Below are positions 19,488 through 21,328 of a stretch of DNA of 38,889 bases, in pieces. The DNA lies in the NCBI GenBank assembly GCA_021166845.1, contig JAJPEP010000060.1:1-38889 (forward strand), written 5' to 3'. The notes under the pieces are model-generated. The model saw only the letters and a list, made by a program, of their open reading frames with translations, was not told the origin of the DNA and made no database searches. Positions within the stretch are counted from its first letter, which is position 1. Each line of letters begins with the position of its first letter. Made by a program: the position numbers and the translations under genes. Source of the DNA: Thiobacillus sp. Lineage in GTDB: Bacteria; Pseudomonadota; Gammaproteobacteria; Burkholderiales; Thiobacillaceae.

Positions 19488-19823
19488 GGTGGGTCTCCAG
19501 GTAAACATCATTTAATTTCCTGATTTTCCGCCTGTGGGCGGCGGCCAGCCAATAAGTAATGTCGATGGCGGTATTAGTGCATGACGGAAGTGTTTGATTC
19601 CGTCCGGCGGCCCGCCAGGAGGGCGATTGGATGGAGCATAATCGGGGACGGCCGTTTGTCGGTCTTCCCCATCGGGCGCCGGCGATGCGGAAGCGCCTGG
19701 CTGCCCATCCGGAGGGCGGCCGGGAGGCCATAGAGACAGGCCCTGGCGATGCTGTATAGTATATAAAAATATACTAATGTATTAATTTTGATATGATTTA
19801 GCTTCTCATGAATGGGGGTGATT
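19488..19823. other. 336-nt divergent intergenic region
   Basis: It separates the helical-repeat gene (minus) from the cytochrome-DUF302 operon (plus). The first part is GC-rich and carries a short CCGCC/GGCGG dyad near 19530. The last 75 nt turn strongly AT-rich, with the palindrome at 19757-19776. No ORF or RNA gene is evident. Both transcripts must start here. Confidence 0.7.
19757..19776. promoter_or_regulatory. Perfect 8-8 palindrome in AT-rich promoter region; candidate operator
   Basis: TAGTATAT and ATATACTA are exact reverse complements separated by AAAA. It lies 48 nt before the cytochrome gene start, in a stretch almost free of G and C while the surroundings are GC-rich. Position and symmetry fit the operator of a dimeric repressor overlapping a promoter. 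The TATAAT-like content prevents exact assignment of the -10. Confidence 0.6.
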
Positions 19824-20873
19824 ATGCTCACGCATCTAGTATTGGCGGCGACCCTGCTTGCCGGCCTCGGCATGTCTTCCGCCATGGCCGGGTCGGACGG
19901 CGCGGAGCTATACGGGCGCCACTGCGCCGCCTGCCACGGCGAGAATGGTGACGGCGGCATCGGCATACCGCTTTCTTTGAACGCCTTTCAGGCCGGCGCC
20001 AGCGACGACTATTTAAGCAAGACCATACGCCATGGTCGACCGGGCCGGGTCATGCCGGCATTTTCAAAGCTGGACGAATCCGAAATAAAGGCCATCGTGC
20101 GTCATGTGCGCAGCTGGAACAAGGGGGCTTCCGTCACCTATTCCGGGCAATACGTGAAGGGCGACCCGTTGCACGGCAAGAAGCTGTTCGCACAATACTG
20201 CGCCGCCTGCCATGGCGCGGACGGCGAAGGGGGGAAGGGGACCGGCGTCACCTACTCGCGGCCACGGGACCTGCCTATCATGGCGCCTGCGCTGCACAAC
20301 CCGGGTTTTCTCGCCGCGGCGCCCGACGCCATGATCAAGGCGACCTTGATGCACGGGCGGGAAGGCACGCCGATGATGTCGTTCCTCAAGCAGGGCCTGA
20401 AGGAAAAAGACATCGACGACATCGTCAGTTACGTGCGTGAATTCGAAAAGCAGCCGCTGCCGGGAAGCGCAAGGGTATTAAAGGTGGAAAACCCGGTGAT
20501 CGTCAGGGATTCCCCCTACGATCTGGCGACCACCGTGGAAAACGCCAAGCGGGCGGTGAGCAACAACAATTTCTTTTATGGCCGGGTGCAGACGCTGGAG
20601 TATGGGCTGACCGCCCCGGCGGATGAAAACCCGAAACAGGTCATCGTCTATTTTTGCAACATCAGCCTGCTCAACCAGGCGCTGGCCATCGATCCGCGCG
20701 TCGGCATGTTCCTGCCCTGCCGCATCACCATTCTGGAGACGAACGGCAAGGTGCAGGTGATGTCGGTCAACCCCAATGTGCTGAGCCGGCTGTTCAACAA
20801 CTCCGAGCTGAACCGCCTGTGCGATGAAATGACCAAGAGCTATACCGCGATCGTCGAGGAGGCAACGCTATGA
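19824..20873 (+). CDS. Exported dihaem cytochrome c fused to a DUF302 domain
   Basis: A 349-residue periplasmic protein. The signal peptide is MLTHLVLAATLLAGLGM followed by SSAMA. Two class-I cytochrome c domains follow, each with a CAACHG haem site (CAACHGENGDGG near residue 34, CAACHGADGEGG near 126) and a later Met-containing segment (GRVMPAFSKL; TPMMSFLKQ) that could give the axial Met. From about residue 225 the chain becomes a DUF302 domain (TTVENAKRAVSNNNF, IVYFCNISLLNQAL, PCRITILETNGKVQVMSVNP). ATG 19824 is preferred over ATG 19812 because GGGGGTGA precedes it and the signal peptide starts there. It overlaps the next gene by 4 nt (ATGA). It probably handles electron transfer, perhaps linked to sulfur chemistry; the substrate is unknown. 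Confidence 0.88.
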   Translation: MLTHLVLAATLLAGLGMSSAMAGSDGAELYGRHCAACHGENGDGGIGIPLSLNAFQAGASDDYLSKTIRHGRPGRVMPAFSKLDESEIKAIVRHVRSWNKGASVTYSGQYVKGDPLHGKKLFAQYCAACHGADGEGGKGTGVTYSRPRDLPIMAPALHNPGFLAAAPDAMIKATLMHGREGTPMMSFLKQGLKEKDIDDIVSYVREFEKQPLPGSARVLKVENPVIVRDSPYDLATTVENAKRAVSNNNFFYGRVQTLEYGLTAPADENPKQVIVYFCNISLLNQALAIDPRVGMFLPCRITILETNGKVQVMSVNPNVLSRLFNNSELNRLCDEMTKSYTAIVEEATL

Positions 20874-21328
20874 AACATTCGTTGAAGTGGGCGGGCGCCG
20901 TCTGGTTGGCCTTGCTGCTGTGCATGCCCGCTGCCGCGGATGACTTGCTGATGGCGCGCGCGAACCGGATGTTTCCGGAGGCGATGACCCTGCTGCAATC
21001 CGCCATTTCCTCGCGGGGCTATACGGTTACGCGCCTGCAGCAAGTGAACGAAAACCTGCAGCGGCGCGAATTCCAGAGCGATATGTATCGCGTGGTGTAT
21101 TTCGGCAAGCTCGAGGAAGTCAGACGGGCGACGGCAAGGAACCCGAATCTGATTCCGTTTTTGCCGCTTAATATCACGATCTTTGCGGAAGGCGATCAGA
21201 GCATCCTGGTGGCAAGCCATCCGCAAATGCTGCAGGAGTTCTTCCCCGATCCCGAACTGAAAACGCTTTTCGAGCGCTGGGAAAAAGACATGGTGGAAAT
21301 CATGGACGAGGTGCGCGAAGAGAAGTAA
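20870..21328 (+). CDS. Exported DUF302-family protein
   Basis: A 152-residue protein with a clear signal peptide (VWLALLLCMPAAA, cleavage before DDLLMAR). The mature part is a single DUF302 domain: EAMTLLQSAISSRGYTVTRLQQVNENL, then YRVVYFGKLEEV, FLPLNITIFAEGDQSILVASHP and a C-terminal amphipathic helix rich in Lys and Glu. It starts inside the stop of the cytochrome-DUF302 gene (ATGA overlap), so the two are translationally coupled and probably act together in the periplasm. The two DUF302 units are homologous but divergent, which suggests heterodimer formation. Function of the family is not established. Confidence 0.85.
   Translation: MKHSLKWAGAVWLALLLCMPAAADDLLMARANRMFPEAMTLLQSAISSRGYTVTRLQQVNENLQRREFQSDMYRVVYFGKLEEVRRATARNPNLIPFLPLNITIFAEGDQSILVASHPQMLQEFFPDPELKTLFERWEKDMVEIMDEVREEK

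Follow-up and report, generated by a model that had tools for sequence, protein, structure and literature searches.

Two overlapping genes in the genome of a Thiobacillus sp. raise the question of what a dihaem cytochrome c does with a C-terminal domain of the DUF302 family, and why the fused gene is followed by a second one whose product adopts the same fold. The genes, denoted A for the fusion and B for its partner, lie on contig JAJPEP010000060.1 in a stretch of 38,889 nucleotides that was analysed as a whole and is referred to as the window. Its nearest named relative, judged by A, is a contig of a Thiobacillus sp. metagenome-assembled genome with 99% identity across the DUF302 domain. The genome of the window itself is 86% complete with 6% contamination, and contains soxB and two copies of dsrA above the respective cut-offs. 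In sulfur oxidisers without SoxCD, the handling of sulfane sulfur is a long-standing gap.

Two overlapping genes for probably exported proteins

The reading frame of A opens at position 19812 and comprises 353 codons, and residues of A are numbered from this position throughout. A start at 19824 yields a protein of 349 amino acids and is favoured by the stretch GGGGGT, noted by eye shortly upstream. Export of both A and B was likewise judged by eye, from their N-termini (Table 1). In A, Pfam recognises two cytochrome c stretches (Cytochrome_CBB3, E 1.9e-26; Cytochrom_C, E 3e-22) and a DUF302 domain (PF03625) at residues 272-321, with 43.4 bits and an E-value of 3.1e-11 against a gathering cut-off of 23 bits. 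Two CAACH sites, a C-terminal DUF302 domain and an ATGA overlap of the two genes had been described in the initial annotation, and all are present. No NCBIfam model matches A at or above its cut-off, and with 77.3 bits against CcoP (TIGR00782, curated cut-off 179.95) and 56.9 bits against actinobacterial QcrC (NF050122, curated cut-off 200) the protein is not a member of either family.

Table 1. Features of the A/B locus, in coordinates of the window. Rows are aligned fused sequences of A.
Feature	Position	Strand	Basis
Fusion gene A, dihaem cytochrome c and DUF302, exported (by eye)	19824..20873	+	ORF, Pfam, orthologues
Probable signal peptide of A, to AMA/GS	19824..19892	+	Translation, by eye
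Haem 1 attachment CAACH, C38-H42	19923..19937	+	C38 and C41 in 133, H42 in 134 of 134 ungapped rows
M81, probable axial ligand of haem 1	20052..20054	+	Met in 134/134 ungapped rows of 137
Haem 2 attachment CAACH, C130-H134	20199..20213	+	C130 and C133 in 134/134 ungapped rows of 137
M188, probable axial ligand of haem 2	20373..20375	+	Met in 137/137 rows
DUF302 domain of A, residues 229-353	20496..20870	+	Pfam; fold match 1Q9U, TMt 0.87
C282 (YFCN), Cys also in canonical DUF302	20655..20657	+	136/137 rows; Cys in 1Q9U and 1J3M
C303 (LPCR), Cys also in canonical DUF302	20718..20720	+	135/137 rows; Cys in 1Q9U and 1J3M
C337, third cysteine, substituted by Cys at B59 in one clade	20820..20822	+	130/137 rows; swap
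ATGA overlap, stop of A and start of B	20870..20873	+	Sequence
Partner gene B, exported (by eye) DUF302-fold protein without the DUF302 cysteines, 152 aa	20870..21328	+	Pfam, AlphaFold2, fold match
Probable signal peptide of B, to AAA/DD	20870..20938	+	Translation, by eye
V59 of B, Cys where A lacks C337 but has C303	21044..21046	+	V/I/L in 145, C in 5 of 150 pairs

The classification of B is less straightforward. Against PF03625 it reaches 19.9 bits (E 6.9e-4), which is below the gathering cut-off of 23 bits, so that B is not called a member of the family, and no NCBIfam model matches it. Its AlphaFold2 model (pLDDT 83.6), however, matches the DUF302 structures 1Q9U (E 8.9e-9, TMt 0.84) and 1J3M (E 8.4e-6), and BLASTP aligns B to the DUF302 half of A and of A orthologues with 22-27% identity over about 105 residues. 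The DUF302 domain of A and B are therefore old paralogues, B being the diverged copy. The second exported DUF302 protein claimed at the outset is thus upheld in its fold and in its signal-like N-terminus, but not as a Pfam assignment. Where A has C282 and C303, B most commonly has glycine (136/150) and leucine (126/150), and cysteine is absent among the residues listed. As a separate observation, two pairs (cls_L172 and gt_L148) have a lone cysteine in B although A keeps all three of its own, and in L172 this residue replaces the conserved W137.

The cytochrome half of A

Twice in its sequence A combines a CxxCH motif with a distal methionine, the pattern of a class I c-type cytochrome, with ligation by the methionines deduced from conservation. 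Conservation was assessed in 137 fused sequences, some genes being included twice; for haem 1 the count refers to the 134 of 137 rows that are ungapped, one of which has an X. Since M81, M188 and both CxxCH sites are essentially invariant, the alignment suggests that both haems are of the His/Met type.

The structure model of A (pLDDT 79.2) was built from 16 sequences. The best fold matches of its cytochrome half are 6h5l_B, 6adq_C and 7q21_C, from actinobacterial complex III supercomplexes and the Kustc0457/Kustc0458 complex. To our knowledge, neither QcrC nor Kustc0457/Kustc0458 contains a DUF302 domain. Far weaker matches were obtained for TsdA (4wq8, E 0.02) and SoxCD (E 0.12). TsdA and TsdBA are periplasmic dihaem cytochromes that act on sulfur compounds, and the active site of TsdA is a Cys-ligated haem. 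In A, on the other hand, the haems look His/Met-ligated and the conserved cysteines are located in the DUF302 domain; the conserved methionine after each haem site in the aligned sequences would argue against Cys ligation.

A and B are encoded side by side

A fused A with at least 55% identity was found in 17 of 200 genomes of the order, that of the window included, and B adjoins it in 17/17, with one partner (G135) interrupted by the end of its contig. When named genomes were scanned with the A domain, B was directly downstream in 80/80 of the best 80 of 214 relatives, a set biased to close relatives. The whole two-haem fusion is present at 76 of these 80 loci; L146 and L159 end at contig ends, L153 is short and has no haem sites, and L112 has a single one. 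Thiobacillus denitrificans and Sulfuriferula multivorans (loci L103 and L094) are among the sulfur oxidisers with the pair. A profile search of 274 genomes of the class retrieved 45 fused genes, counted as fused frames of at least 343 codons, with two CxxCH motifs in 44 and one in L190. Here, B was directly downstream in 45/45, with partners assigned by domain position; eight unfused matches over 77 bits were tallied separately, and weaker matches were not counted as pairs. Note that the order, named-genome and class sets overlap.

In every instance inspected A and B thus come as a pair, well outside the strain in which they were first noted, and a second gene of the DUF302 fold adjoins every fused gene examined, a point that the initial annotation had put forward for checking. 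Neither of the two findings that it had named as refuting, the absence of a DUF302 match from the C-terminal 125 residues and a pair confined to this strain, was obtained. As the same order recurs in all of these genes, the arrangement is more than chance. As a control, other DUF302 genes of the order sample and of the window's own genome were inspected over 1.5 kb per side or to the contig end, and 0/15 had a further gene nearby that matched either the A or the B model. The same holds for weaker matches from the class and phylum samples (0/11), those from the class sample being L220 and L221. Among 170 genomes of the phylum sample nothing scored above 68 bits except the window's own genome, and haem sites are absent from a frame of 469 codons at L231. 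A plasmid search with A returned 114 records, none of which covers 80% of the query, and in the 20 rows listed the match is confined to the cytochrome half.

There are also neighbouring genes for exported A-like and B-like proteins that both lack haem sites (loci L212-L219 and L083-L085), in three genomes of the order sample (G033, G078, G129) and in eight genomes from the class sample. The genes are adjacent or overlapping in 11/11, the A model gives the highest score for each of the 11 A proteins (78-168 bits) and the B model for each of the 11 B proteins (34-120 bits, with L216 and L085 lowest), and the same three cysteines of A are kept in 11/11. This constant adjacency, together with the preference of the B proteins for the B model, suggests that A/B is the core unit and that the cytochrome was added or lost, in a direction that is not settled by the tree. 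Some B proteins of the cytochrome-free pairs show, by eye, a lipobox-like N-terminus.

A third cysteine that resides in either chain

In 1Q9U and 1J3M (TT1751), which share the fold of both DUF302 parts, cysteines are found at the positions of C282 and C303; these are single-domain proteins without haem. The position of C337 is different: 1Q9U has no cysteine there and one about 11 residues further on, the alignment of 1J3M ends before it, and no counterpart was seen on reading four other DUF302 proteins of the window's own genome.

The distribution of this third cysteine was followed in 150 A/B pairs, 139 of them distinct as some genes are included twice, with L079 (G135) excluded for its incomplete B. 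The residue is found at A337 in 143 pairs and at position 59 of B in five, in both chains in none and in neither in two, and the latter two have also lost C303. In a quick tree of 97 rows from which the swap columns had been removed, the five exchanged pairs (L205, L206, L208, L210 and L211) form one clade (SH-aLRT 100) and three state changes suffice in all; one of the five, L211, sits on a long branch and was flagged as unsure. On this tree the exchange is one event, kept through long branches, which makes it suggestive and not a statistical proof. Because the third cysteine sits in A337 or in B59 and never in both, the two residues may well take up one common position next to C303 when A and B dimerise. 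This exchange is the best evidence we have for a contact between A and B, and we take it as a hint. The DUF302 heterodimer proposed in the initial annotation gains from it to that extent, through a single event, while the dimer as such is deduced; that the two DUF302 domains would form a heterodimer with the cysteine site of A near B59 has fair support from the sequences.

A fixed disulfide between C303 and C337 within A had been suggested by their joint loss in G132. It was weakened by the five rows that keep C303 and lose C337, and was recast when the partners of those five were found to carry a cysteine at B59.

Genomic association with sulfur oxidation

In the class sample, soxB is over its cut-off in 42/45 genomes with the pair as opposed to 70/229 others (Fisher p 9e-16), dsrA is found in 35/45 versus 52/229, and one or the other in 44/45; 70 genomes of this sample have soxB without the pair. 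Counted by genus, soxB exceeds its cut-off in 32/35 genera with the pair, against a background of 222 genera of which 94 have a soxB match (p 4e-11, a rough value as genera were counted by hand). The order sample gives the same trend, with soxB in 17/17 pair genomes versus 80/183 others, and dsrA in 12/17 versus 26/183. All of these tests are confounded by ancestry, as related genomes share both traits. In the order sample soxC occurs in 1/17 genomes with the pair and in 38/80 of the remaining genomes with soxB (p 0.001 within soxB genomes, p 0.08 when all genomes are compared). The gene dsrA was considered as the determinant of the pair and discarded: in the order sample only 12/17 are over the cut-off, G014 having dsrA in pieces and four lacking it, and among genomes with soxB and without soxC the presence of the pair does not depend on dsrA (p 0.39).

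Two exceptions deserve mention as anecdotes. In the class sample, all three cysteines are gone from the sole pair genome that has neither marker (G410, locus L204), and the sole order-sample soxC genome with the pair (G132) has lost C303 and C337, while C282 stays.

The pair of the window lies outside sox, and in three pair genomes no ORF predicted in the vicinity of soxB matched the A or B model, although picking the longest ORF may miss small genes. Flanking genes were scanned at every second of 80 loci (about 40) and gave 132 ORFs, some of them likely antisense, with ORFs of at least 700 codons excluded. Among the 25 most frequent Pfam and NCBIfam families (of 83 and 419, respectively), no sulfur family was found, and no metal resistance family other than MgtC-type magnesium-related membrane proteins. 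The families that could be named have housekeeping or regulatory functions (pyrC, rsmI, prfB, mraZ, response regulators), and the shared flanks read by eye are housekeeping genes as well. With no sulfur gene among the neighbours identified, the sulfur link of A/B rests on genome co-occurrence. The connection to sulfur oxidisers made in the initial annotation is thereby borne out by the distribution with soxB and dsrA, but not by the neighbourhood.

Upstream of the pair, at 19758-19775, there is a perfect AT-rich inverted repeat, AGTATAT-aaaa-ATATACT; it was dismissed as a conserved operator, being present in 1/80 relatives. A promoter scan yielded three promoter-like sites versus 0.9 expected, and a terminator scan one terminator-like site versus 2.1 expected.

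Several other loci were read by eye. Downstream of the pair at L136:6981-8393 and L139:4056-5519, the next protein has a haem site close to its N-terminus and is otherwise porin-like. In the window's own genome, single exported DUF302 genes at L222:9015-9521 and L223:4818-5330 are accompanied by thioredoxin-like and TonB-receptor-like proteins, one of the two loci adjoining a gene for a Cu/Zn superoxide dismutase-like protein, and at L225:8066-9015 a DUF302 gene lies directly 5' of a CrcB-like gene. The structure deposited in the PDB as fluoride transporter CrcB (7tj1) shows the fold of DUF302, a hint that its name was transferred from a fused or neighbouring gene.

Discussion

We favour a reading in which A and B form a conserved two-gene operon for a periplasmic complex, a heterodimer whose thiol site would feed electrons to two haems in sulfur oxidation, and assign it a probability of roughly 0.5. 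The cysteine site may react with a reduced sulfur compound or with a sulfur-carrying protein, which is the more weakly supported element of the scheme. C303 and the third cysteine could act as a disulfide or a thiol relay, with C282 as the reactive thiol, and electrons would pass from this site via the two His/Met haems of A to a c-type cytochrome or the oxidase pool. Such a module would work like a sulfur-compound:cytochrome c oxidoreductase beside a truncated Sox system. A more specific version, in which a three-thiol DUF302 site assembled across both chains takes sulfane sulfur or polysulfide, with SoxYZ as a possible donor where SoxCD is lacking, and passes electrons into the fused haems as an undescribed periplasmic sulfur oxidoreductase, can be offered only tentatively.

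The functional analogy to Sox is one of working principle. SoxYZ is a small heterodimer with a reactive cysteine that is served by haem proteins, and SoxY carries a C-terminal carrier motif of the GGCGG type. This motif is absent from the translations of A and B, neither of which qualifies as a SoxY, and unlike SoxYZ with SoxAX or SoxCD, A would unite the carrier-like domain and the cytochrome in one chain.

A less elaborate function, which we consider doubtful, would make the cytochrome a plain periplasmic electron carrier that the DUF302 dimer docks or stabilises, with C303 and the third cysteine as a structural disulfide. The resemblance of the cytochrome half to the dihaem cytochrome of actinobacterial complex III fits a carrier, and a structural disulfide is in line with the third cysteine not being seen in the four other DUF302 proteins read from the own genome and with G132, which loses C303 and C337 together and keeps C282. 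A disulfide, however, would not need C282, which is retained in 136/137 rows, and the same three cysteines persist in all 11 pairs that lack the cytochrome. Three thiols at one site that either subunit can complete would equally suit the binding of a metal or metalloid such as Cu(I), As(III) or Zn, the pair then being a cytochrome-coupled periplasmic protein for metal sensing, delivery as a chaperone, or detoxification. This we judge the least probable reading, as a chaperone would have no obvious use for two haems, the distribution over genomes tracks soxB, and the most frequent flanking families include no metal resistance, MgtC-type proteins aside.

Compatible with any of these functions is the view that the pair serves autotrophic or facultatively anaerobic Gammaproteobacteria in general, and follows sulfur oxidation by ancestry or lifestyle. 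The shared descent of both traits in related genomes and the lack of sulfur genes among the identified neighbours would be expected under it, yet soxB exceeds its cut-off in 32 of the 35 genera with the pair, and the one class-sample genome that has neither soxB nor dsrA has lost the cysteines, so that we find it unlikely.

The occurrence of DUF302 genes near sulfur genes has been published before. In Acidithiobacillia without soxCD, a 191-aa DUF302 gene is located between soxA and soxB, and a role in trithionate metabolism as well as a homodimer were speculated upon (PMC5037610, as far as accessible). These organisms are sulfur oxidisers, as are the likely hosts of our pair, but their gene is inside the sox cluster while that of the window is outside. 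In its accessible part the same paper describes as unknown what DUF302 and the sox genes do in these bacteria, and there is no mention of a cytochrome fusion or a second DUF302 gene. From similarly partial sources, T. thioparus has six DUF302 genes outside sox (PMC5248467), several Sulfitobacter have one between soxF and soxH (PMC11034169), and a DUF302 gene resembling one in the Synechocystis sqr operon has been noted (PMC5061849). In the portions of the DUF302 literature that were searched, neither a cytochrome-DUF302 fusion nor a constant DUF302 pair is mentioned. The undescribed module anticipated in the initial annotation therefore looks new, within this literature, in its fusion and its constant pairing, but not in the proximity of DUF302 to sulfur genes.

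Structures of DUF302 have been solved without its role being settled, and the A/B pair offers a way into its function; should the sulfur oxidoreductase reading be true, it would be the first biochemical role for this domain. The exchange of the shared cysteine makes a sharp and testable prediction on the interface of A and B. With its built-in haems and a distribution tied to sox and dsr, the A/B unit is a concrete target for the gap in sulfane sulfur handling, and a good candidate for a step of electron transfer in sulfur oxidation that has yet to be characterised.
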